A stretch of 64,000 nucleotides of DNA from an uncultured Muribaculaceae bacterium (GCA_947525975.1 CANNVE010000013.1:21042-85041), one strand, 5' to 3'; shown: positions 11,560-61,528, counted from the stretch's first letter. Numbers and translations are program-made. Notes: a model not told the origin generated them from the letters alone.

Positions 11560-12489
11560 GTGGAAAATATGGACAACATGGACAATAGCCTGAACATAGA
11601 AGACCTCGCCATCCTGCGCGACGTGGCCATTGACTTCGGCATGCTCGGAGACGACTACATCGTGGCCTATTTCAAGCCTGAAGCCATCGACAGGGAGATC
11701 CTGTCAGTGCCAACGAGCATCGCCGGCCTCACGTATTGCCTGCTGAAAAAAGGACACGCCACCATCAATATCGACTTCAAAGAGGTGGCCATGTCGCCCA
11801 ACTCCCTGATGGCCACCGACTCCAACTCGCGCTTCTCCTTAAAGTCGCTTGCCGCCCACGGCACAGAGGTATTCATGATGTGCTTCTCGAGCAAATTTCT
11901 CCATGACCTTAATTTCGACATGCACACCCTGAATCTGCACGAATTTGTCGACAACAGGCCCGACGCCATCATAAAGCTCACCGACTCGGAGGCCCAGCTC
12001 ATGGAGCATCTGGCCCTTGTGCTGCTGAAAAACGCCAAATACAATTCAGAGCCAACATTCTCGCTGCAGATAGCCCGCTCGGTGACGCAGGCGCTAATAT
12101 ACCAGCAGCTGCAGATATTCTCGTCGCGCAGGCCCAAAAGCATAGTAGGGAACGATACCCCCACAGGCTCGCGCCAGCTGGCCTACGTGCAGGAATTCAT
12201 GCGGCAGCTGCAGCTTCACCACAGCCACCACCGCGCGATTGCCTTCTATGCCGACAAGCTCTGCATATCACAGAAATACCTATCCCATGTGATCAAGGAA
12301 GCCACCGGGCGCTCCGCCACCGAGTGGATAGCCGAATACGTGGTGATGGAGGCCAAGAATCTGCTCCGATTCTCCAACAAAAACGTGCAGCAGGTGGCCT
12401 ACAGCCTGAATTTCCCCACCCAATCGTCATTCGGGAAATACTTCAAGCACGTCACCGGCATCTCCCCGAGCGAATTCCTCAAAGGCTGA
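11560..12489 (+). CDS. AraC-family transcriptional regulator
   Basis: C-terminal double HTH: CISQKYLSHVIKEATGRSATEWI...VAYSLNFPTQSSFGKYFKHVTGISPSEF. Confidence 0.88.
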   Translation: MENMDNMDNSLNIEDLAILRDVAIDFGMLGDDYIVAYFKPEAIDREILSVPTSIAGLTYCLLKKGHATINIDFKEVAMSPNSLMATDSNSRFSLKSLAAHGTEVFMMCFSSKFLHDLNFDMHTLNLHEFVDNRPDAIIKLTDSEAQLMEHLALVLLKNAKYNSEPTFSLQIARSVTQALIYQQLQIFSSRRPKSIVGNDTPTGSRQLAYVQEFMRQLQLHHSHHRAIAFYADKLCISQKYLSHVIKEATGRSATEWIAEYVVMEAKNLLRFSNKNVQQVAYSLNFPTQSSFGKYFKHVTGISPSEFLKG

Positions 12490-12500
12490 CCAGCCGCCCG

Positions 12501-14570
12501 TCAGCGGTTATCCCTCGACTCTTCATATCCGAGCGACGGATTATTGACGTTGACTCTGATGCCTTTCTTTCCGCCCATAAAGAACCATGTCACCTGCAAT
12601 TTTAATATCTGTGCGGGTGTAGTGTATCGCATGCTGACGAGGCGGTCTGACGTGCGTCGGTCTATTCGGCGACGTTGTTCAAAAGGCTTTAAGTCAACTC
12701 TCACCTGTAAAGTACGTTTGAGAAATGTCTTATAGGCTATCACATTGCATTGATACACAGTGTGCATCGTGCGGTCGTAAGATCGATAGGTCGGTTCAAT
12801 CCAGAATTCTGCGCCCAGGCCCCAATCACGGAAAGATATGGAGTTGAAGACAGAATAATATTGGTGGAGACGGGTCTTGTCGTATGTCACGCCTGATATT
12901 GTCTGATTTTCAGGTGAGAAACTCAATCTGGCAAAGGCTTTAATTGTCCATACACCAAAGAACTTACGCATGTATTCACCGCGCAAGGCATAATAATGGC
13001 TCGCACCGATGTTTATCGGTTTTGTGTATGTGACGTCCGGGTCAACCTCGTCGTTGAAAGACTGCCAAAGAATCTCGTTGCCCGTATAGCTATACGACGC
13101 CGAAAAGTTAAGGCTGCTGTTCCATAGACTGATGTTGGCGGTGAGATATTGATCTCTGGAGGCTTTCAGGTCTCGGTTGCCCACTGAGTAGGAATAAGGG
13201 TCGACCCAAGTTTTTTTCTCGGAGATTGCGTCGTAGGGCACATTGCCAAGGGTGTGCTTGTATGTAACCGATACTCTGTGTCGGCTGTTGTCGCCAAATG
13301 GCAGAGAAATTTGCAATGAGGGGTTTACGGCATTTTGGCTGTAAGTCTTTTCAGAGCCTACCTTAACTGAATTTTGCTGCCAATTGAGTGCGGCGTAATA
13401 TCGGAAACGCCATAAATTGCCCTGCATAGATGCGTAAGGTTGTGGAGTCTGTGCAGTAACCTTTGTGCGGGAGATAATTCCATCGGGGATTTCTGACGAA
13501 GATTGGTCTTGCTCTATATGCACTCTTCGGTATGTGAAACCGGTATTAAATCGGTGTTTTTTACCAAACGGATGTTCGAAGTCGGCGTTGATCTCATACA
13601 GGTTTGAATTGCCATTTTGTAATAGATCGTTGATGGGAGAGTTGAAAAATAGTTGTCGCATTTCGGCATGGCGATTCATCCAGTCGGCGCTGACCTGAAG
13701 TTGGTCGCCCTTCTTGCTCAAAGTACCGGTATAAGTGGCCGAAACCACATTGGATGATTGGTGTCCGGGTTGCCGCATCATCAGAGATTTGCTGCCTGAA
13801 GAAAAGTCGGATGACTTATTCTTGTTGTATGCTGTGCGCCAACTCACGCCAAGACTGTGCGAGGCATTGATATCGTAGTTGAGTGATAATGTGTTAGTGA
13901 AGTTGCCCTGCCGTTTGTTTTGGCGAACTTTCTCATTTGATTCCTCATTGCCTGATACAAGGCTTTCGATTCGTTGTTCAGACCATTCGTCATAGTCCAT
14001 TCCAAATAGATACGGAGCTTCATAAATGTCGAGTCTGCCCACTTTGGCAAATACCGAACCGCCAAGAAAAGCATTGTATATACCCTGGCGTCTGCCATAC
14101 GCGCTCCCGGCATATGCGTTTCCATAATATCCATTGTTGTGTAGTGGCTTTAACTTGATGGCGATAGAGCCTCCAGCAGAGTTGGTTATGTTCTTTGCGG
14201 CTCCTGAATACTTAACCTCTACCGACTCTATCATTTCAGCCGACAGACGCTCTAATTCAGAGCGGTCATATATTTTGCGGCCATTGACGGTGATTTCGCT
14301 GGCTGTCAACCCGTTGATCTTTATGTTTCCTTGTTCCACCGATACGTTGGGTAGATAATTGAGCACGTCGGTTGTACTTTTGGCTGTGACTATTTCCTGA
14401 CCTGCAAGCCTCACCCGATATCCTGTGGCTGTATTGACAATAGATGACGCCGATACCACTACATCATTCAGTTCTACAGCCATGGTGGAGTCCGCTGCTT
14501 CAGTTTGAGCAGTTGCATTCAATGCCCCTCCCCAAACGGCAATCACCACTAAAATAAGATATTTATACAT
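12501..14570 (-). CDS. TonB-dependent-receptor-like outer membrane beta-barrel protein
   Basis: 689 aa; signal peptide, plug domain (LNDVVVSASSI..TTDVLNYLPNVSVEQGNIKINGLTASEITVNGRKI), barrel. Confidence 0.85.
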   Translation of the reverse strand: MYKYLILVVIAVWGGALNATAQTEAADSTMAVELNDVVVSASSIVNTATGYRVRLAGQEIVTAKSTTDVLNYLPNVSVEQGNIKINGLTASEITVNGRKIYDRSELERLSAEMIESVEVKYSGAAKNITNSAGGSIAIKLKPLHNNGYYGNAYAGSAYGRRQGIYNAFLGGSVFAKVGRLDIYEAPYLFGMDYDEWSEQRIESLVSGNEESNEKVRQNKRQGNFTNTLSLNYDINASHSLGVSWRTAYNKNKSSDFSSGSKSLMMRQPGHQSSNVVSATYTGTLSKKGDQLQVSADWMNRHAEMRQLFFNSPINDLLQNGNSNLYEINADFEHPFGKKHRFNTGFTYRRVHIEQDQSSSEIPDGIISRTKVTAQTPQPYASMQGNLWRFRYYAALNWQQNSVKVGSEKTYSQNAVNPSLQISLPFGDNSRHRVSVTYKHTLGNVPYDAISEKKTWVDPYSYSVGNRDLKASRDQYLTANISLWNSSLNFSASYSYTGNEILWQSFNDEVDPDVTYTKPINIGASHYYALRGEYMRKFFGVWTIKAFARLSFSPENQTISGVTYDKTRLHQYYSVFNSISFRDWGLGAEFWIEPTYRSYDRTMHTVYQCNVIAYKTFLKRTLQVRVDLKPFEQRRRIDRRTSDRLVSMRYTTPAQILKLQVTWFFMGGKKGIRVNVNNPSLGYEESRDNR

Positions 14571-14582
14571 AATGAAGTTCCA

Positions 14583-15902
14583 TTATTTACTTGTGAGCAG
14601 TTGATGATATACCTCTATCCCCGTAAGAATTTGAAATATATTTTTCATGTTGTTAACTGCTTTTATTGGATTTATTCCTATTGGACATTTCTCAAATCTG
14701 CATTCAAGCCTGGCCTGAGAGCAAGAGGGGCATATAGGCAATAGCCTGCATTGTCGGCATATATTGCCATACGATGTGCCTTTAATGGTTTTTGATTCGT
14801 CTCGTTCTTTTTCGATGAGACAACCATCTTCATTTAATTTTCCAATACTATTAGTTGTATTGAAATCCCTTGCGGTACATCGATATGCGTTTCCATCATA
14901 ATTTATTACAATATTATTTCTGAAATCCGCGTAACATACTTTGAGAGAGTGTCCGGAATCCTTATGGAAATTTGAGTTTATTGAATAGTTCGTCTCAATT
15001 TCATTTATCAACTTCTTCCATAATGTACCAAGTTCTTCGTCATTCTTTTCTTGCCAAATTCTTTGAAATAAAAAACGTAGATTGTTATAATGATGAAAAT
15101 CCTTGAAGTCAGCAATTACTTCCTTGAATGAAGCTATAGTTTCTTTATTGTAATTGCATCTCACAACGACATTAAATCCCATCTCAATAGCTTTCTTTGC
15201 GTTTTGTACGCTCTTGTCGTAGCAACTAATATGGTTGCCAAGATGTTTGACTTTGTTGTGGAATTCACGTGATCCGTCAAAAGCAATTTGAATGTTGACA
15301 TCAGGTGAAAACTTCTTTAAATCAATGAGGGTTTTGTCTGTAAGAAGAATCCCATTGGTGGTTATTGTAAGTGAAAGTTTGGTTGAAGTGAGTTTGCATG
15401 AATCATAAATATGTGCTATGATGGGTTTGACTACTTCCTTATATCTAAGCATGGGTTCTCCACCGAAAAAGGAAAGTCTGAGTTTTTTTACATTACGGCT
15501 TTTTAGGGTATTAGAGATGAATGTAATCGTGTTTTTTATTGTTTCTTCAGACATTACACTTTGGGCGTGTCTTTTCTCATAACAATACCAGCACCTTAAG
15601 TTGCAATCAAGGGTAGGGTTTATCGTTATGGTCAGATTGTCAAAAGAGTTGTACTCTTTGATTATCTTTTCTACACATTTGTTGATGTCGTCATCTATAT
15701 CTTTAACAAGGTATTCTTCTGAAACGAGAGCATCATAAAAATCAGGATGTATCTCCCTCAAATCATCGATATTGGTTTCATGAAGTTTGAAAATATCGGC
15801 AAGTTCTTTCTCTATCTGTATCCATTTAAGGGTCATGCAATTAAACAGATAAGAGTACCCATCCTTACCTTCAAATAATTCGGTATAACGACTTAATTTC
15901 AT
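14583..15902 (-). CDS. Radical SAM/SPASM peptide maturase
   Basis: 439 aa; TLDCNLRCWYCYE (CxxxCxxC), FFGGEPMLRY, C-terminal Cys cluster CRQCRLLPICPSCSQARLECRFEKCPIG. Confidence 0.9.
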   Translation of the reverse strand: MKLSRYTELFEGKDGYSYLFNCMTLKWIQIEKELADIFKLHETNIDDLREIHPDFYDALVSEEYLVKDIDDDINKCVEKIIKEYNSFDNLTITINPTLDCNLRCWYCYEKRHAQSVMSEETIKNTITFISNTLKSRNVKKLRLSFFGGEPMLRYKEVVKPIIAHIYDSCKLTSTKLSLTITTNGILLTDKTLIDLKKFSPDVNIQIAFDGSREFHNKVKHLGNHISCYDKSVQNAKKAIEMGFNVVVRCNYNKETIASFKEVIADFKDFHHYNNLRFLFQRIWQEKNDEELGTLWKKLINEIETNYSINSNFHKDSGHSLKVCYADFRNNIVINYDGNAYRCTARDFNTTNSIGKLNEDGCLIEKERDESKTIKGTSYGNICRQCRLLPICPSCSQARLECRFEKCPIGINPIKAVNNMKNIFQILTGIEVYHQLLTSK

Positions 15903-15937
15903 GTTTATTGGTTATGTCTATAGATGTGCTTGAATGC

Positions 15938-15974
15938 CCTCCCTTGCTTTTTGTTAAAAACAATGCAAGGGAGG
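15938..15974 (-). terminator. Hairpin between RiPP precursor and rSAM (attenuator or RNA-processing site)
   Basis: cctcccttgc / gcaagggagg, perfect 10-bp stem with T/A-rich loop. Confidence 0.5.
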
Positions 15975-15989
15975 ACTGTTGATGTGTAG

Positions 15990-16241
15990 TTACGGTTTTG
16001 GCTCAGGGAAGACGGGACAGTCGAGGTTGTATTCAGTTTTGGTGTCGCTTCCGCATGTTTCACAACTGCAGTTGACGTTAGATATTTCATCGTCATTATT
16101 GCCGATGCCGCTTCCCCCTTTGTTGCAGTTTATGTTGGTTATTTTCGCATAGACAGTGCCTATGCCCCTTATTGATTGTAGCGAGAAGCCTCCTCGAAGT
16201 TTTCCCGCGTCATCAACAGTGAGTTTCTGAATCGTGCTCAT
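15990..16241 (-). CDS. Candidate RiPP precursor, GG-leader, Cys-rich core (83 aa)
   Basis: MSTIQKLTVDDAGKLRGGFSLQSIRGIG...NINCNKGGSGIG...NVNCSCETCGSDTKTEYNLDCPVFPEPKP; LRGG leader motif; adjacent to rSAM/SPASM enzyme. Confidence 0.78.
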   Translation of the reverse strand: MSTIQKLTVDDAGKLRGGFSLQSIRGIGTVYAKITNINCNKGGSGIGNNDDEISNVNCSCETCGSDTKTEYNLDCPVFPEPKP

Positions 16242-16423
16242 TTGCTGTAGTTTTTATTGGTTAAGTACACTTACGCGGTACCACTAACGACATTCCCTCA
16301 AGCGGTAGTTTCCGGATACAGTTCACTATTGGAATGTTTGTTTATATTGCGTCGACTGCAAATCTGTGTTTGGGCTGAATGATAGGTTGTGGTGGTGTAT
16401 TTGCTGTTATTGATGTTTTTGGG

Positions 16424-16431
16424 CAAAGATA
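16424..16431 (-). promoter_or_regulatory. -7 box (TATCTTTG on minus) for RiPP operon
   Basis: plus-strand caaagata, AT-rich intergenic region upstream of the precursor. Confidence 0.5.
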
Positions 16432-16711
16432 ATACGTTTGTTTTTAATTTCCAAAAAAAAATAAGTTATAAATTTATGTTATTTGGTGAAATTATGTTTC
16501 GATTTTGATGTTTTATTACCGCGCCTGTTTGTTAATTGTTAGTATTGTAAAGTGTACTGTCCGGGATTGTGTGTTTGGGATGAGTTGGAGTGAGGCCGTG
16601 TTGAGCCCTTGATGACGCTATTGTTAGGGCGGTTTAGGGCTGGGTTGGGGCGGTTGTTTTGGGGGTCGATAAAAAAACGTCTAAATAGAGAGGTTTTTTA
16701 AATATTTTCGC

Positions 16712-18704: not shown

Positions 18705-21700
18705 TTAGTTTCCTGTTGCTACTGTGCTCCTGTCATTGATGCTCAATGTCACGGGGCCTATAAGGCCTGATTCAAGCAGTGGCGAATCCTCTGTGTAGTG
18801 TTTCCATGGGAGGAAGAGCACTCGCTCTCTTTGGTCGGGCTCGCTGTCGGTGTACCATTGCGGGAATGACTTCAACCGGCCATATTCATCATATTCATAT
18901 AGTTCGGGCAGATGCTCGTCGCCAATGATGCGGTTTGGATAGAGGTTTGTCACCTTGACCACAAGGTCGTTTTCGCCTTCCTTCAGATAGTCAGTGATGT
19001 CGAGTGCGAAGGGTGCTTTCCAGATTGTGACGGGCTCGCTGCCGTTGACTGACACCTCGGCGATGTTTTCCACACGTCCCAGATTGAGCATGACTCTGCT
19101 CCCATCGGCGGGCTGATGCAGGCTGAAGCTCCTGGTGTAGGTGGCTGTGCCTGCGAAGTGGCGCACGTCAAAGTCTTCGTGCTTGTGCAGCGATTCCAAA
19201 GCGGGCATGTTGATGGAGCCGTTGATTTTGCTCCATGACGGGAATGTCACGCTCCATTCCGCCGACAAGTCTTTCAGTGGCTCGCCGATTATCGCGGGCG
19301 CAGGAAGCCCTCCGGCCAAGATGCTGTCTATTTCATTGGCCGATATGGCGTAGGCGTATGCTTGGGGCAGAGTAGCGTCACCTTCAAATCCGGCTATGAA
19401 TTGTTCCTCGGCCATTGCGACATCGATCGCAGGGATGCAATCATAGCTTGATTTGATGCCTTTTGCAGCGAACTTGCCGTTGACGAAGAGTTCAGGCACG
19501 CCTTCGTCATAGCGCAGCAATACGTGTGTCCATCCCTCGATAGGTTCATTGTATTCAAGCACCCTTTTGTTGCCTGCGTTCCGCTCATGCACGAATATTC
19601 CGTTCTGTCCCATCGCTATGCCCACAAAGGCTGTGTTGCCTCGGCCTTGCGGAGGAAACAATATGAATCCGCGGTTGGCAGCGGCGAATGTTTCGGGCTT
19701 TGCCCATAGAGAGATAGAGAAAGTGGAGCCTAAGCTGTCTGTGACGCTGTATGGCCTCTTCCCGCTTTCTGTGATGATGGTGGCCGGTTCGGGCGATACC
19801 TCTCTTATACCCGGAGCCGGAGAGTCGTCAGGCTTGAACACCAGGAATATCGACCCTGATTCCGGAAGATCTATATTTACGTATTCCGAAGAGCCATTAT
19901 CGTCCCAGTCTATTGTGGTGTCGGTATCCCCGGTCTCCGCATCCCAAAGATAGGGGCGCTTGCCGCTCAGGCGGCATTTCACAGTCAGCCTTTCCGGACG
20001 CCGACGATGGTTTGAGATGAAATATACGTCAGAATCTCCTGATTTCTTGTGTATGAAATGTATCTGTGCGTCGAGGTTTTGTGACACAAATTCGAAATCA
20101 GGAGCAAGAGACAGAGCCTCAGGCAGGTCAGAAAAAGACACTCCTCTATATATTTTTCCTTCGCCCAAGGTATCGCTGCCCCATAGCAGGGCTGCCAGCC
20201 TCTTCGACTCCTTGTCCTTTTCTGCGTCAAGGCCGGGATGGCCTGCGGGCATCTCCCCTTGAAGCACAATAGAGATGCCTTGGCGGGTGAGATCGATCAG
20301 CTTTTGCAGCAGTTCGGGTGTCATGCGGCGGATGTCGGGCACCACCAGGGCCCGGTAGCGCATGCCGTTGGGCAGAGTCAGAAGTCCGTCGTCAGCTGAC
20401 AGGCGCTTCAGCACCCCTTCTTTGTCTATTGCGTCCCAGCGGTATCCATAGGGCAAGGAAGATGTATAGTTGGTGATTGCCGAGGATATACCCTCGTCTT
20501 TTAGTATCAGGAAGTCAGTCACGGTGTGACCTTGCTGCAGCATGTATGAGCATCGTGATACGTATGTGTTGAAGTCGGAGAAATGAGAAGCCCACGTCGA
20601 CGTGCGGTCGAGGTGAGTGCCGAATGGCCCCATAGTCATGATGTTTCCCGGCTGGTCGGCAGTGTAAGGCTGATGCGTGGTGGCATGGTATACGAATCGG
20701 TTGACGCCAGCCGTCATTATATAATCGCCGAGGGCTTTCATGCCATATGGATGCTCGGTGAATTTGCTGTTGAACGGCGTGCCTGTATAGCATTCGCAGG
20801 CCACTATGGGTTTGTCCCATACGTGGGCTGACGATGCTGCCATGTAGGTGGTCATGATATTTCCGTATATGTAGTGCGTCCAGAATTCGCTCATCGGTAC
20901 ATCCTGGCATGCCGCCATCTCAAGGCTTTCGAAATTGCCGTCGCCGTATGCCTCGCCGGCGTATTTGAGGCCTCGGTCGGCCATGCGCTCGGCGAAATAC
21001 CGCGCATAGTTGTCAATGAACATGTCAGCCTGGGTGCGTCTCAGGTCCCATAGGAATCGTTCGCTGTCATCAACGCTTTCCACTATTCGTCCGGTGGCTG
21101 TCAGAATCCAGGGTGATATGTCGTATCCGCGTTTCTCCTTGAAGTATGAAGGCAATTCTTCTGTCCAGTTTTGCTTTCCGGCCTCCCAGCTGTCGATGGC
21201 GAGCCCGTCGAATGTGCTGCCGCACCAAGGCTTCAGCTCATCGAGCAGTGGAGTCAGAAACAAGTCGAAGTGGGCATCGAGGCCTGCTTTGCTCAGCTTG
21301 TCGCAGTCAAGACCTCGACCCGCGTCTGGCGCCGCCGCCACGGTCTCGCCGGTGGTGGTGTATCCGATCCTGACTATGGTCCAACGGCCTTTGGGCGCTT
21401 TCCATCTTATCTTGCCGTCAGGCCCCATTTTGTCGGTGATGTCAATGACCCGGTCTGGATCGATGGTAAAGGCCTTGTCGGCTGATTGCTTGCTGTCGAC
21501 AAGGGGGATGGCTTGGTTCACGCTTCCGTTTTTTGGAGCGTAATTCTCTATGCGCGGCTCTCCGTGAAATGATGCCTCGGCCAAGTTGGTGCCACGGTTG
21601 GTGGTCAGCCTGAAGAAAGACGCGGTGACCGGCTCGAATGTCATTGTGCCCGGGACATCGAGCTCCCTCAGGGGGCCGTTGGTAAATCTGCCGATTGGGG

Positions 21701-22499
21701 AGAAATTGACGCCATCGGCCGATGCTTCGACCGTTATGACCGGGGCATAGTCTCGCGGGCCGTCATGGGGGTCGAGCGGCAGTTCTCTTTTGCCTCGGTA
21801 CATGGTGGCGGCTCTGGCTGTAAATGGCTTTTTCAGTTCGAAGGTCACAGATTGGCCTCCCTCCAGCCTTAGCTCTGTGCTCAGGTCAAGGTCGGTGAAT
21901 ATGCTTCCGTCTATTCTATCGCCGCCTACAGAGACTGACTTAATCAAGTCGGAGAAATCTGTGTCATCGCCGGGGACTGACGGATACGCCAGGACATATG
22001 CGTCCCGGTAAAAACCGAGTTTCGATATTGGCTGTGGCATATCGGTCTTTATCTCGCCGTTGCCTGATGACTCTATGTGCTTATCGCTCCATACGAGTTG
22101 CTTCATGGATTTTTCCGCCGGAATCCACGGCCCTCCCGTGCCGCTGTATCCGGGGGAATTATGCATATACAGCTTCAGCCCCAGCCTTTCCGCCTCTTTC
22201 ATGGCGTGGATGATGGCGTCATGCCATTGAGGGGAATTATAGTCGACGCCTCCTTTTGGGATGCCCACTCCTGCTTCGAATATCATTGCGGCTCCGTAGT
22301 TGGCGCGTTTCATGTATTCGAGGTCGAGGGTGATTCCGTGTTTTGAGATATTGCCGTTCATCCATTCCCAATAGGTGTTGGGGCGGGCCTGAAGCGGTGG
22401 ATTATTGAAGTCATCCGATGATATTTGAGCCACATTCACCTGTGAGAGGCATAGACTTATGGTGAGGATTGTCGTCCTGAGTGCTTTTTCCGGTTTCAT
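18705..22499 (-). CDS. Large glycoside hydrolase (GH106 alpha-L-rhamnosidase-like) with LamG-like insert
   Basis: 1264 aa; signal peptide, PPLQARPNTYWEWMNGNISKHGITLDLEYMKRANYGAAMIFEAG, LYMHNSPGYSGTGGPW; LamG-like FSISLWAKPETF..GWTHVLLRYDEGVPELFVNGK. Confidence 0.75.
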   Translation of the reverse strand: MKPEKALRTTILTISLCLSQVNVAQISSDDFNNPPLQARPNTYWEWMNGNISKHGITLDLEYMKRANYGAAMIFEAGVGIPKGGVDYNSPQWHDAIIHAMKEAERLGLKLYMHNSPGYSGTGGPWIPAEKSMKQLVWSDKHIESSGNGEIKTDMPQPISKLGFYRDAYVLAYPSVPGDDTDFSDLIKSVSVGGDRIDGSIFTDLDLSTELRLEGGQSVTFELKKPFTARAATMYRGKRELPLDPHDGPRDYAPVITVEASADGVNFSPIGRFTNGPLRELDVPGTMTFEPVTASFFRLTTNRGTNLAEASFHGEPRIENYAPKNGSVNQAIPLVDSKQSADKAFTIDPDRVIDITDKMGPDGKIRWKAPKGRWTIVRIGYTTTGETVAAAPDAGRGLDCDKLSKAGLDAHFDLFLTPLLDELKPWCGSTFDGLAIDSWEAGKQNWTEELPSYFKEKRGYDISPWILTATGRIVESVDDSERFLWDLRRTQADMFIDNYARYFAERMADRGLKYAGEAYGDGNFESLEMAACQDVPMSEFWTHYIYGNIMTTYMAASSAHVWDKPIVACECYTGTPFNSKFTEHPYGMKALGDYIMTAGVNRFVYHATTHQPYTADQPGNIMTMGPFGTHLDRTSTWASHFSDFNTYVSRCSYMLQQGHTVTDFLILKDEGISSAITNYTSSLPYGYRWDAIDKEGVLKRLSADDGLLTLPNGMRYRALVVPDIRRMTPELLQKLIDLTRQGISIVLQGEMPAGHPGLDAEKDKESKRLAALLWGSDTLGEGKIYRGVSFSDLPEALSLAPDFEFVSQNLDAQIHFIHKKSGDSDVYFISNHRRRPERLTVKCRLSGKRPYLWDAETGDTDTTIDWDDNGSSEYVNIDLPESGSIFLVFKPDDSPAPGIREVSPEPATIITESGKRPYSVTDSLGSTFSISLWAKPETFAAANRGFILFPPQGRGNTAFVGIAMGQNGIFVHERNAGNKRVLEYNEPIEGWTHVLLRYDEGVPELFVNGKFAAKGIKSSYDCIPAIDVAMAEEQFIAGFEGDATLPQAYAYAISANEIDSILAGGLPAPAIIGEPLKDLSAEWSVTFPSWSKINGSINMPALESLHKHEDFDVRHFAGTATYTRSFSLHQPADGSRVMLNLGRVENIAEVSVNGSEPVTIWKAPFALDITDYLKEGENDLVVKVTNLYPNRIIGDEHLPELYEYDEYGRLKSFPQWYTDSEPDQRERVLFLPWKHYTEDSPLLESGLIGPVTLSINDRSTVATGN

Positions 22500-42982: not shown

Positions 42983-43061
42983 AAATCCGTTGTTTTTGCA
43001 AATTTACAAAAAATAATCGTAAAAACAAATATGCCCTCTCCTTTTTTCGGATTTTATGCTA

Positions 43062-43259
43062 AAAGTGAACCTCGCCCCATAGCATATGGCTCCCTCAATA
43101 CAGGAGCACAGCAGCAGGAGTTCATGTGCAAGTGGAGGAGGTTGTCGCAGAACCACTCTCCAATCCCAGTGAAAACCTAAAGACAGGAGCACAGGAGCAA
43201 CAGGAGTTCATGTGTTTGGGTGGAGGTGCGTCTTTTTGAGGCGAACGGGCCAACTTGCA
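43062..43259. repeat. Long direct repeat, left copy (with tandem sub-repeats)
   Basis: aaaagtgaacctcgccccatagcatatggctccctcaatacaggagcacag ... cctaaagacaggagcacaggagcaacaggagttcatgtgtttgggtggaggtgcgtct. Confidence 0.85.
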
Positions 43260-43342
43260 CACATAGATTTATAGGCAATTATTCATAAAATTGCATAAAA
43301 ACTTCTGTTCCTACTGTGCTCCTGTCTCGATGCTTCACGATC

Positions 43343-43670
43343 CCTGGCTGTTTGAGTCAAATACATTGTTGCTCTTGTAGGTGGTGATGGGGTATGGGAC
43401 CTCTGATTGTGGGATATGTCTTGCGGTGCCCTTTCCGAATAGCCCGAGGCCAAACGTTGGGTCTGCGCAGATCTGGAGGTCGAGGTCCTGCGTGAGTCAG
43501 AGCCTGTATCCTATCCTGATTGGGAGTGTCAGATAATACGGCTTATATTCTGAATCGTGTATCGTGAGTCCGGCGTTGTGCAGATTGACATATCCCCCTA
43601 TGTATTTGTCACCACATGGTTGTGACCCGATTTTTAAGGCGGCTTAGGCCATCCATCTGCTGTTGATGTC
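43343..43670 (-). pseudogene. Remnant of outer-membrane/porin-like protein with in-frame stop
   Basis: Reverse frame reads ALKIGSQPCGDKYIGGYVNLHNAGLTIHDSEYKPYYLTLPIRIGYRL*LTQDLDLQICADPTFGLGLFGKGTARHIPQSEVPYPITTYKSNNVFDSNSQGS*; TGA at 43499-43497. Confidence 0.5.
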
Positions 43671-43855
43671 GCAAGCGGCTGACCGAGCCAGTCAAGATGC
43701 GGCAGCAGTTCGGCGAGGGTTAGAGGTGTTATTTCAAAAAAAGGTCTTGCCTTTTTTTGAGAAGATAAGAGCCGTTATCCTAACGACCCACAACTTTTGC
43801 GTAGTAGGTGATGATGTAGAAGTATGGTAGCGCCCTCTGTGCGGAAAAGACAATG

Positions 43856-44944
43856 TTATCGATCTTCATTTACGGAATGAGGGAAGCTTTTTCCTTTATT
43901 CTCCCATTTCTCTCTTAATTGCTTCATTTTTCGCTGCCATGAATTTATCTCACTTTTGCTTGCATTCCTATTGCCGGCAAATGCTTGAGACAACATACTG
44001 TCATATTTTGAATAAGTTGATTTGTCCGAATTATAGGAGCGTTGCTCCGACATATTATATTTGTTGTCATTTTGATTATTAATACCATTCGCCTTATTAT
44101 GACCGGCATCAGTAAGGTTGTTATTCACAGAATTTACGCCTATAGCATTGATGTCCTCACCCTGAGATAAACCTTGAAGTTCATTTGAAAGACTCGCCAA
44201 TGTACTAGCCCAATCTTCCATAGAACCTAATGCTTTTTTCCATGCTGCATTCCATTCTGATTTTGATTGATTTACATATGAAGCGTATTCCTTGGAGGAA
44301 GATATAAAAGTGCTTGTATCTCCATCGACTTTCTCTGTAAACCAATTTCCATCAGTTTCTATGTAAGTACAAATTCCATCACGCTGTCCTTGTAAAAACT
44401 GTGATACTAAAAAATCACCGTTAACAAAGAATATAGCACCAAAGCCATATGGCAAATCTGAAGAAAATTCACCGATGTAATAAAAATCTTCTGTTTTTAC
44501 GTCTGAAAAGTACTTAATTGCAGAGACGACACTATCTCCGTAGTTCTCTATGGGAACATCATTTTCAAATTTACCTTCATATATAGGCTCCCCTTCGTAA
44601 TTATAGCAAATCCCTTTTCCGTGTTTTATTCCATTCTTGAATTTTCCAACATAAAATGTTGCGCCTGGGCAATTAGAAATTGTTTCACCTTTAGGGGCCA
44701 ATAACATTCCAGAACCATTATAAACCTTATCTTTAAAATTTCCAATATATAAACTGCCATCTTTGCCTTGATAGAGTCCGGCGCCTGAAATTTTCCCTTT
44801 AACTTTTTGTGCAACAAAAAAACCGTTTTTGGACTTTTCAGTAATATGAGTAGTAGTCGAAGAAATAGGAAGAGGATAATCAAAAATCTGTGCCTGCATA
44901 AGAAGGCACAGATTTATGAAAGCGTATAGTATTACGTATCTCAT
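43856..44944 (-). CDS. MORN-repeat protein (secreted)
   Basis: YQGKDGSLYIGNFKDKVYNGSGML, FYVGKFKNGIKHGKGICYNYEGEPIYEGKFEND; signal peptide. Confidence 0.8.
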   Translation of the reverse strand: MRYVILYAFINLCLLMQAQIFDYPLPISSTTTHITEKSKNGFFVAQKVKGKISGAGLYQGKDGSLYIGNFKDKVYNGSGMLLAPKGETISNCPGATFYVGKFKNGIKHGKGICYNYEGEPIYEGKFENDVPIENYGDSVVSAIKYFSDVKTEDFYYIGEFSSDLPYGFGAIFFVNGDFLVSQFLQGQRDGICTYIETDGNWFTEKVDGDTSTFISSSKEYASYVNQSKSEWNAAWKKALGSMEDWASTLASLSNELQGLSQGEDINAIGVNSVNNNLTDAGHNKANGINNQNDNKYNMSEQRSYNSDKSTYSKYDSMLSQAFAGNRNASKSEINSWQRKMKQLREKWENKGKSFPHSVNEDR

Positions 44945-45405
44945 AGTGCAAAATTCACATCACCGAGATTTTCCCATTTCTGAAGCCACTTAGAAGATTT
45001 TTTTTCTGAGACTTCTTTGATTTGCATATCATGTATGCCCTTGCTTGTTAGTTCAAGGAAGTAAGTGTCCCCGTCAGTGATATCAAGCGAAATCTCGCCT
45101 TTATATGTATTTACATTACCATTCTTAGGTACAGTGTATAGCATAGTGCCTGTTAATAGGATTTGCCCCTCGCCCTCTATTACAATTTTGTGATAGCAAC
45201 CATTGCGTTTGATCATGGATCCGCCTCCATATACGTCCATTGTTTTGTTTACCGAGCCATTTAGCTCACATACATCTGCCCCATTGATGGCAATTGTAGT
45301 ATCAGTGTTATACATGCTCTTTAAGAAAACATACACTGTACTTTCAGCTTTTACGCTGATAATGATAGCCATAAAGGCAATCACCAAGGAAATAAACCTC
45401 TTCAT
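44941..45405 (-). CDS. Small secreted hypothetical protein, operon partner of MORN protein
   Basis: 154 aa; MKRFISLVIAFMAIIISVKAES signal peptide; ATGA overlap with MORN gene. Confidence 0.75.
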   Translation of the reverse strand: MKRFISLVIAFMAIIISVKAESTVYVFLKSMYNTDTTIAINGADVCELNGSVNKTMDVYGGGSMIKRNGCYHKIVIEGEGQILLTGTMLYTVPKNGNVNTYKGEISLDITDGDTYFLELTSKGIHDMQIKEVSEKKSSKWLQKWENLGDVNFAL

Positions 45406-45736
45406 ACAAATTCATTATGAGTCAGTCCGGCTCATGGTTGAATTATAAAAGCGTGGACTGAATTGCCACACTTTAGAAGATGGTCGTAGGAAACCAAAAG
45501 ATGAAGATGTAGGAATAGCAGCCCACGCTATGCGTGAGAACCGCTTGCTCCCTTGCATCTTTAGAAAATTTCCTACGTTTTCTTCTACAAGTAAAAGCAA
45601 TACGCTTCTTGTTAATCGTATGTATTTGTCACTCCGAGGAATGACGTTGCAAATTTAGAAAAAAGAATTAAATATTCAAAAAAATAGTGGGAATAATTTC
45701 GATAAGAAGACGATAAAAAGAGATTTGGAATTGAAA

Positions 45737-45870
45737 AGTGAGCCACGCCCCAAAGCCTATGGCACCCTAAAGACAGGAGCACAGGAGCAACAGGAGTTCA
45801 TGTGTTTGGGTGGAGGTGCGTCTCTCTGAAGCGCACGGGCCAATCTCAAACAACCTTGATCGGCGCTAAT
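45737..45870. repeat. Long direct repeat, right copy
   Basis: aaaagtgagccacgccccaaagcctatggcaccctaaagacaggagcacaggagcaacaggagttcatgtgtttgggtggaggtgcgtct. Confidence 0.85.
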
Positions 45871-45906
45871 CCCTTGTCAAACCTCTTTGAAGTTTATGTA
45901 AAAAGA

Positions 45907-45935
45907 GACGGGCCATCGCTTGGCGATGGCCCGTC
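45907..45935 (-). terminator. Intrinsic terminator
   Basis: gacgggccatcgc-ttg-gcgatggcccgtc perfect 13-bp stem flanked by T/A runs. Confidence 0.85.
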
Positions 45936-45963
45936 CTTTTATCGTTGCGTTGTGGAGTGTCGA

Positions 45964-46170
45964 TTATTCAACAACCTCAGCGGCAGCAGCAACTACAGTG
46001 TCAGCAGCGGCAGCAGCGCTGTCGGCAACTTCTTCTGCAGCAACTTCAACTACTTCTTCTACTGCGGGAGCCTCTTCAACAGCAGCCTCGGCGTTCTCAG
46101 CCTTGTTGCCACCGCAAGCTACCATAGAAGCTGCGAATGCAACCATTGCAAGGTAAACTAACTTTTTCAT
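45964..46170 (-). CDS. Small Ala/Val/Glu-rich lipoprotein
   Basis: MKKLVYLAMVAFAASMVACGGNKAENAEAAVEEAPAVEEVVEVAAEEVADSAAAAADTVVAAAAEVVE; promoter box (plus caaagtta 46225-46232). Confidence 0.8.
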   Translation of the reverse strand: MKKLVYLAMVAFAASMVACGGNKAENAEAAVEEAPAVEEVVEVAAEEVADSAAAAADTVVAAAAEVVE

Positions 46171-60399: not shown

Positions 60400-60423
60400 C
60401 ATGGATCGGCTATCGCTTTTCGC
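60400..60423. repeat. 24-bp direct repeat, right copy (native lpxB 3' end)
   Basis: catggatcggctatcgcttttcgc spanning the lpxB stop. Confidence 0.9.
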
Positions 60424-61528
60424 GCAATAGGATTTCGGCGGCGGTGTCGGGGGCGGATTGCGTGCCGAGAATGGCGCGCATATCGGCGTAATCGTCGAGC
60501 ATGCGGCGGCGCGGCTCGCGGTCGGGGAGGAGCTTGCCCAGCTCGGCGGCACATGAATCGGCGGTGCACAGGTGCAGCAGCATTTCCGGTATGATCTGTC
60601 GGCCCGCTATTAGGTTGGGGAGAGTCACGAAGTCGATTTTCAGCACCTTGCGCATGAGGCGGAAGAAGAGTTTTGAGCCGTTGTGGCGGAACATGGCCAC
60701 CTGCGGCACTCCGGCCAGGGCTGTCTCAAGGGTGGCTGTGCCTGATGTGACCAATGCCGCCCGGGCATTGGCGAGAAGCCCGTAGGTCTGGTCGAATACC
60801 ACCGGGAGATTGGAGAATTGCTTGTAGAAATCGGGGTCGACTCCGGGCGCGCCGGCCACCACGCCCCTGTATTGCGGAAATTGGCGCATGGCTTCGGCCA
60901 TGATGGGCATATTCACGCGTATCTCGCTCAGCCGGCTGCCCGGCAGAAGGGCTATGATAGGCTTGTCCTGCAAGCGGTTGGCCTTGATGAAGTCCTCGCG
61001 TGAGGGCGCGCCGGCCATGTAGCGGTCCACCTCAAGCACTGACGGATTGCCCACGTAGTCGACCGTCATGCCGTGCTTGGCGTAGAAATCCACCTCAAAC
61101 GGGAATATGCACAGCACTTTGTCTACGATTTTGCGAATCTTCTTCACCCGCCATTCCTTCCAGGCCCATACCTTTGGCGGGATGTAATAGTGCACGGGGA
61201 TGCCCAGCTTGCGGGCGAAATCGCCCATGCGCAGGTTGAAGCTCGGGTAGTCGATGAGGATGAGGCAGTCGGGGGCTGAATCCTTTATCGCCTGCTTGGC
61301 CACCTTGAAATTGCGGCGTATGGCACCGGCATGGCGCAGGATCTCGGTGAAACCCATGAAAGCCATGTCGCGGTAGTGTATCACAGGCTCGGCGCCGGCG
61401 GCCTGAGACATCAGGTCGCCGCCGAGAAATGTGAACTGCGCCTGCGGATCGCGCTCCTTGAGGCTGCGTATGAGGTCGGCGGCATGGAGGTCGCCCGATG
61501 CCTCGCCGGCGATAAGGAAGTATTTCAT
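60410..61528 (-). CDS. lpxB: Lipid-A-disaccharide synthase
   Basis: MKYFLIAGEASGDLHAADLI; FLGGDLMSQAAGAEPVIHYRDMAFMGFTEIL; ALLPGSRLSEI. Confidence 0.96.
   Translation of the reverse strand: MKYFLIAGEASGDLHAADLIRSLKERDPQAQFTFLGGDLMSQAAGAEPVIHYRDMAFMGFTEILRHAGAIRRNFKVAKQAIKDSAPDCLILIDYPSFNLRMGDFARKLGIPVHYYIPPKVWAWKEWRVKKIRKIVDKVLCIFPFEVDFYAKHGMTVDYVGNPSVLEVDRYMAGAPSREDFIKANRLQDKPIIALLPGSRLSEIRVNMPIMAEAMRQFPQYRGVVAGAPGVDPDFYKQFSNLPVVFDQTYGLLANARAALVTSGTATLETALAGVPQVAMFRHNGSKLFFRLMRKVLKIDFVTLPNLIAGRQIIPEMLLHLCTADSCAAELGKLLPDREPRRRMLDDYADMRAILGTQSAPDTAAEILLREKR

Follow-up and report, generated by a model that had tools for sequence, protein, structure and literature searches.

A radical SAM peptide cassette with repeated Asn-x-x-Cys motifs and a co-varying TonB-type barrel in an uncultured Muribaculaceae bacterium

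The 64,000-nucleotide stretch of DNA analyzed here (the window; GCA_947525975.1, CANNVE010000013.1:21042-85041), from an uncultured Muribaculaceae bacterium, carries on its minus strand a three-gene cassette which very probably encodes a system for a ribosomally synthesized and post-translationally modified peptide (RiPP) that depends on a radical S-adenosylmethionine (rSAM) enzyme. The cassette is real and probably functional. The reading preferred here, to which a probability of about 0.6 was assigned, is that its product is a RiPP with several thioether rings, with an exporter encoded elsewhere and a co-evolving TonB-dependent barrel. The three open reading frames (ORFs) had been located and quoted correctly in a preliminary description made from the sequence alone. 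In the direction of transcription, a promoter match is followed by the precursor gene, an 87-nt gap containing a hairpin, the rSAM/SPASM gene and the TonB-type barrel gene, which starts 12 nt past the rSAM stop:

16424-16455, minus strand: putative Bacteroidota-type promoter (−33 element TTTG at 16455-16452; −7 element TATCTTTG at 16431-16424)
15990-16241, minus strand: precursor gene, 83 aa; 18-residue leader encoded by 16241-16188, with GGF at its junction to the core
15936-15976, minus strand: strong hairpin in the precursor-rSAM gap (−25.6 kcal/mol, z −6.7)
14583-15902, minus strand: rSAM/SPASM peptide maturase gene, 439 aa (Pfam PF04055, AlphaFold2, Foldseek)
12501-14570, minus strand: TonB-dependent barrel gene (OMP_b-brl_3), 689 aa, with plug and TonB-box-like N-terminus

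In a tree of 77 relatives of the enzyme, built by a quick method with SH-aLRT support, the window sequence fell in a set of four (support 99) nested in a set of ten (support 97), the latter composed of Muribaculaceae-like, Rikenellaceae and Bacteroidaceae genomes. A Cys-rich ORF with a GGF or GGY leader was found directly 5′ of the rSAM gene in all ten clade members, so the neighbourhood survey bore out the earlier proposal of an rSAM RiPP cassette. Within the window, the precursor is the single example of a GG-leader, Cys-rich ORF, versus 0.1 in locally shuffled windows. Its leader had been described as only 18 residues long; the length is right, but it is not exceptionally short, lying at the short end beside the 20–27 aa of its relatives. 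A longer leader is impossible because the frame, open over 87 codons, meets a stop 4 codons 5′ of the ATG. The core contains the five Cys reported before (39, 58, 60, 63 and 75). Residues G17, G18, C39, N55, C58 and C63 are invariant in the ten clade precursors, and the core consensus is N-x-N-C ... N-x-N-C-x-C-x-x-C; core sequences are highly variable between relatives. A profile built from the clade recovered the second copy of the same genome and the same relatives with E values of 1e-20 to 1e-25, a result that is partly circular. The suggested resemblance of the leader to TIGR04149 precursors was not sustained, as an HMM search of the precursor gave no match at E ≤ 1. At that same limit, no NCBIfam RiPP model matched the window precursor or any of the further Bacteroidales precursors that were scanned, and TIGR04149 had no match across the genome of origin, in a search where no positive control matched either.

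The most regular feature of the clade cores is the position of Asn relative to Cys. When Cys positions were held fixed and the remaining core residues were shuffled, Asn was found at −3 for 27 of the 43 Cys, versus 4.3 expected (none of 2000 shuffles was as high), and at −1 for 19 Cys versus 5.5 expected, while enrichment was weak at −5 (P 0.013) and the other tested positions were at background. Counted as motifs, N-x-x-C occurred 25 times in nine cores, versus a mean of 4.2 and a maximum of 13 in 20,000 shuffles, which ignore kinship among sequences that differ strongly in core length and flanking residues. The same peaks were seen in the sister clade, in a more repetitive pattern (Asn at −3 for 56 of 95 Cys), and more distant precursors had Asn at −3 for 37 of 108 Cys in a hand-picked set that includes one without GG junction. 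The window core contains four such motifs, the second and third of which overlap:

16125-16136, minus strand: core motif N36-I-N-C39, predicted thioether pair 1
16068-16079, minus strand: core motif N55-V-N-C58, predicted thioether pair 2
16062-16073, minus strand: core motif N57-C-S-C60, predicted thioether pair 3
16017-16028, minus strand: core motif N72-L-D-C75, predicted thioether pair 4, absent from most relatives
16053-16055, minus strand: Cys63, clade-invariant, without Asn at −3, predicted to be a free thiol or to have another role

The streptococcal enzyme NxxcB links the C-beta of Asn20 to the sulfur of Cys23 in NxxcA, forming a beta-thioether (PMC8326336; PMC13361665). Because of this spacing and the enrichment of Asn at −3, rings 36-39, 55-58, 57-60 and 72-75 are predicted for the window peptide. 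That the precursor-enzyme pair would form thioethers can be regarded as likely, and that these would be Asn-to-Cys rings at N-x-x-C is somewhat favoured. The likeness to NxxcA/NxxcB is one of acceptor-donor spacing and of a thioether proposed to be made by an rSAM enzyme; unlike that pair, the window clade combines a GG leader with a C-rich core holding two to four motifs, has a TonB barrel and belongs to Bacteroidota.

The enzyme had been identified as a radical SAM/SPASM protein, and this assignment was upheld by a Pfam Radical_SAM match of 56.6 bits (cutoff 29.5) and by the conservation of its Cys motifs, the Pfam SPASM match itself being under cutoff (16.3 versus 21.5 bits). An AlphaFold2 model obtained with 49 sequences (pLDDT 90, pTM 0.89) showed in residues 1-90 the order beta-beta-beta-alpha-alpha-alpha, as in RiPP recognition element (RRE) domains:

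15633-15902, minus strand: RRE-like (PqqD-like) N-terminal domain, rSAM residues 1-90, assigned by model topology
15582-15605, minus strand: rSAM cluster motif C100-x3-C104-x2-C107, 99–100% conserved in 77 relatives
14685-14936, minus strand: SPASM Cys C323-x13-G-x4-C342 ... C382-x2-C385-x5-C391-x2-C394-x11-C406, seven Cys 99–100% conserved in 77 relatives

Foldseek placed CteB (5why/5wgg) at the top of the fold matches (E 1e-17), followed by anSME, SuiB, TigE and ChlB, and sequence profiles also gave CteB as the best solved relative in the PDB. With CteA/CteB, a SCIFF ranthipeptide system, the window enzyme shares the arrangement of an RRE-like domain, rSAM and SPASM with two auxiliary clusters, but it scores 78 bits versus the 425 of TIGR03974, and the window core and acceptor pattern differ. 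The top NCBIfam models, namely CefB, the Cys-every-fifth maturase (NF038107), the geopeptide maturase (TIGR04280) and TIGR04463, are alike in having, by name, Cys-rich substrates; they gave only 111–126 bits versus cutoffs of 400–600 (CefB 126/600, geopeptide 112/400), and PapB gave 91 versus 340. Since the score is far below cutoff for every curated maturase family, the enzyme is best taken as a member of an unnamed subfamily.

The TonB-type barrel proposed earlier was confirmed by matches to OMP_b-brl_3 (PF14905; 131.8 bits, cutoff 27) and to the TonB plug (PF07715). The model of the protein (pLDDT 70) is a plugged barrel with a fold like ChuA, Cir, OprC and other TonB-dependent importers, which argues, purely by analogy, for import or recognition over export, so that a role in recognition or uptake appears the more likely one. 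A like barrel gene adjoins the rSAM gene in all nine clade loci whose flanks are long enough to tell, lying downstream of it in six and upstream in three. The genome has about 20 such genes, and roughly 4% of its positions would thus lie less than 2 kb from one. The nearest relatives of the window barrel are the barrels beside the three nearest rSAM enzymes, and similarity to the window was correlated between barrel and enzyme (rho 0.87 over 11 loci, which are not independent). As read from the sequences, then, barrel and enzyme co-vary.

The promoter is a strict match to TTTG-N20-TATCTTTG, 190–214 nt 5′ of the precursor ATG, and is to be read as a consensus match only. Scans of sigma-70 promoters and of intrinsic terminators gave no excess over shuffled sequence. 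A long stem like that of the window is also present in the precursor-rSAM gap of loci L061, L062, L063, L064 and L002 (z −4.7 to −7.9), is weaker in L025 (z −2.9) and is not significant in L066 (z −1.6). Because the stems of L061–L064 and L002 are unrelated in sequence, it appears that structure has been kept and sequence has not. This is consistent with a partial terminator, or with an mRNA-stabilising element that raises precursor over enzyme. An Rfam search of the operon gave chance-level matches only, the best ones assigning the hairpin to an unrelated miRNA.

The cassette was probably acquired, as had been suggested from its AT-richness. Its G+C content is 35–47%, versus about 57% around it, and G+C at third codon positions is 0.34 in the rSAM gene and 0.50 in the barrel gene, versus 0.75–0.78 in the flanking araC, xseA and TPR genes; low-G+C rSAM genes are usual across the clade. 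An rSAM homologue was not found in the nearest sister genome (G411; xseA 80% and TPR 90% identical), and, within the genus, enzymes of this type occur in just 10 of the 49 genomes. The barrel gene is convergent with an AraC-type regulator gene (11560-12489), and the cassette's other neighbour, a TPR gene, runs in the opposite direction. In G411, compared over contigs C11 and C17 (loci L094 and L095), araC adjoins the gene equivalent to window 60410-61528, which places the cassette at one end of an inverted segment. That segment, of about 49 kb (window 12490-61528), appears inverted relative to G411. The TPR gene is additionally flipped locally, and a GH106 gene (18705-22499) has no match there. 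Near the other breakpoint lies a HEPN-domain protein (PF05168; 59628-60032, minus strand), unmatched in the G411 region compared. A second AT-rich patch (window 43000-46000, 35–46% GC) encodes a MORN-repeat protein (43856-44944); it also has an ORF of 154 aa that matched nothing in Pfam.

Concerning export, a C39-peptidase ABC transporter was not found in the window cassette. One is present in three of the seven clade loci with enough flank (L025, L084 and L087), while L082, L085 and L024 are likewise without a local transporter. The genome of origin has two, on contig C8, inside a paralogous rSAM cassette, and on contig C26, and the window cassette may share one of them.

Taken together, the proposed pathway would be as follows. 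The 18-residue leader would be bound by the RRE-like N-terminal domain of the enzyme, which, with SAM and three iron-sulfur clusters, would take hydrogens from Asn residues and bond each of these residues to the thiol of the Cys at +3. The product would have up to four four-residue thioether rings (Asn36-Cys39, Asn55-Cys58, Asn57-Cys60 and Asn72-Cys75), attached most likely at the C-beta of Asn, as with NxxcB, with Cys63 left over. Cleavage after Gly-Gly would be followed by export of the peptide through a C39-peptidase ABC transporter, and the co-transcribed TonB-dependent barrel would handle the mature peptide at the outer membrane.

Several points weigh against the preferred reading: the family enzymes score far under every curated maturase cutoff, CefB and PapB included; some core Cys have no Asn at −3; the motif would also agree with alpha- or gamma-thioethers, or with a different reaction involving these residues; and, since no exporter lies within the cassette, it could be partly decayed. 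The chemical objection amounts to the same cassette making another crosslink, either sactipeptide-type C-alpha thioethers or CteB-type gamma-thioethers, on Asn or other residues. The nearest solved structure, CteB, makes a Cys-Thr gamma-thioether (PMC8326336) and many maturase families score alike by sequence, but the enrichment of Asn is sharp at −3 (with a second peak at −1), the spacing is that of the beta-linking NxxcB and the clade has no conserved Thr partner, which makes this alternative somewhat unlikely. Decay, meaning loss of the exporter and with it of peptide release, would agree with the transporters carried by L084, L087 and L025 and with the position of the cassette at an inversion breakpoint. 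It is quite improbable, given that the cassette has kept its three ORFs, its promoter and hairpin and its catalytic motifs intact, that L082, L085 and L024 also have no local transporter and that the genome has C39 transporters elsewhere. Hardly credible is that the rSAM is a sulfatase maturase (anaerobic sulfatase-maturing enzyme, anSME) and the small ORF spurious: anSME is among the fold matches, but TIGR03942 gives 59.2 bits versus a cutoff of 349, the N-terminus is RRE-like and a Cys-rich GG-leader ORF lies beside every clade member. The candidate was rejected; the preliminary description had named an rSAM of a non-peptide family, such as anSME with a distant sulfatase target, as a finding that would speak against its own proposal.

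As to function, the peptide could be secreted and recaptured by its own TonB-dependent receptor, for metal scavenging or self-signalling, rather than act as a bacteriocin. The importer-like fold of the barrel, its closeness to the rSAM gene and its co-variation with the enzyme speak for this possibility, which is held tentatively: such barrels could instead serve export or self-protection, the operon has no metal-handling gene, and Bacteroidales clusters with C39 transporter and outer-membrane protein (OMP), and without membrane fusion protein, are noted in PMC10352776. An antibacterial RiPP, with the barrel as immunity or entry factor, is also conceivable but short of probable; patchy, acquired distribution and highly variable cores are usual for bacteriocins, but no immunity-like gene was found, and a barrel kept as a type fits uptake equally. 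Bolder than the preferred multi-ring reading, and itself unlikely, is a Bacteroidales-wide RiPP class in which one enzyme makes several short Asn-Cys beta-thioether rings on N-x-N-C repeats and a dedicated, co-evolving TonB-dependent receptor retrieves or senses the peptide.

The cassette is part of a widespread family of peptide systems, and related ones were found elsewhere. The same genome holds two paralogous rSAM RiPP cassettes, L082 (contig C41) and L083 (C8). Both have a TPR gene upstream and encode a protein of 127–136 aa whose N-terminus is signal-like and which matched no family; a C39 transporter is additionally present in L083. Another locus of the genome (L104, C26:2716-9723) has like accessory genes, namely a TPR gene, a pair of OMP_b-brl_3 barrels and one C39 transporter; it was rejected as a further rSAM cassette, with no rSAM matched and no convincing GG precursor in the scan. 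In the sister rSAM clade, a protein family is encoded 5′ of the rSAM gene (L088:6609-9008, plus strand; equivalents in L027-L037, L090 and L091), and its L088 member, the sole one scanned, showed domains of GT2 glycosyltransferases and a LanC-like region that scored under threshold. Sister-clade precursors lie 3′ of the rSAM gene, often with Thr/Pro-rich tails, and the products are possibly glycosylated Cys-rich RiPPs. Two plasmids, of Flammeovirga (L117) and Rhizosphaericola (L118), carry cassettes with a 32% identical rSAM, one comprising barrel, precursor, rSAM and C39 transporter, the other lying on a mobilizable plasmid and having five precursors in tandem together with rSAM and C39 transporter.

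In 2023, Fernandez-Cantos et al. catalogued in silico a set of Bacteroidales clusters in which rSAM enzymes occur with GG-leader precursors, C39 transporters and OMPs; gamma-thioethers were proposed for one cluster and no experimental chemistry was reported (PMC10352776). The earlier judgement that the window system looked undescribed therefore holds for the core and the subfamily and not for the kind of cluster, of which the window locus is a variant. BGC1-8 of that work resemble it in having rSAM, GG-leader precursor and C39 transporter and/or OMP, some with LanC-like, glycosyltransferase or TPR genes; the N-x-N-C clade and the barrel co-variation go without mention in the sections of it consulted. 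TIGR04149 precursors share the LxGG leader end and the Bacteroidales origin, as against the failed match reported above. In a 2026 rumen survey using the SCIFF rule TIGR03973, ranthipeptides were nearly absent in Bacteroidota (PMC13289728); because of that rule, families like that of the window would be missed. No experimental study of the clade members was found in the literature searched, subscription journals being outside the search. The preliminary description had recognized the system; it had overlooked that N-x-x-C recurs, that the barrel co-evolves, that the hairpin is conserved and that the genome holds two paralogous cassettes.

Among the RiPP loci predicted in Bacteroidales, a dominant gut order, those with radical SAM enzymes are the most common. 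The locus offers a three-gene test case with a chemical prediction at residue level and a candidate receptor. If the prediction is true, Asn-Cys beta-thioether chemistry would reach from streptococci to Bacteroidota, and there would be a handle on the role of such peptides at the outer membrane.

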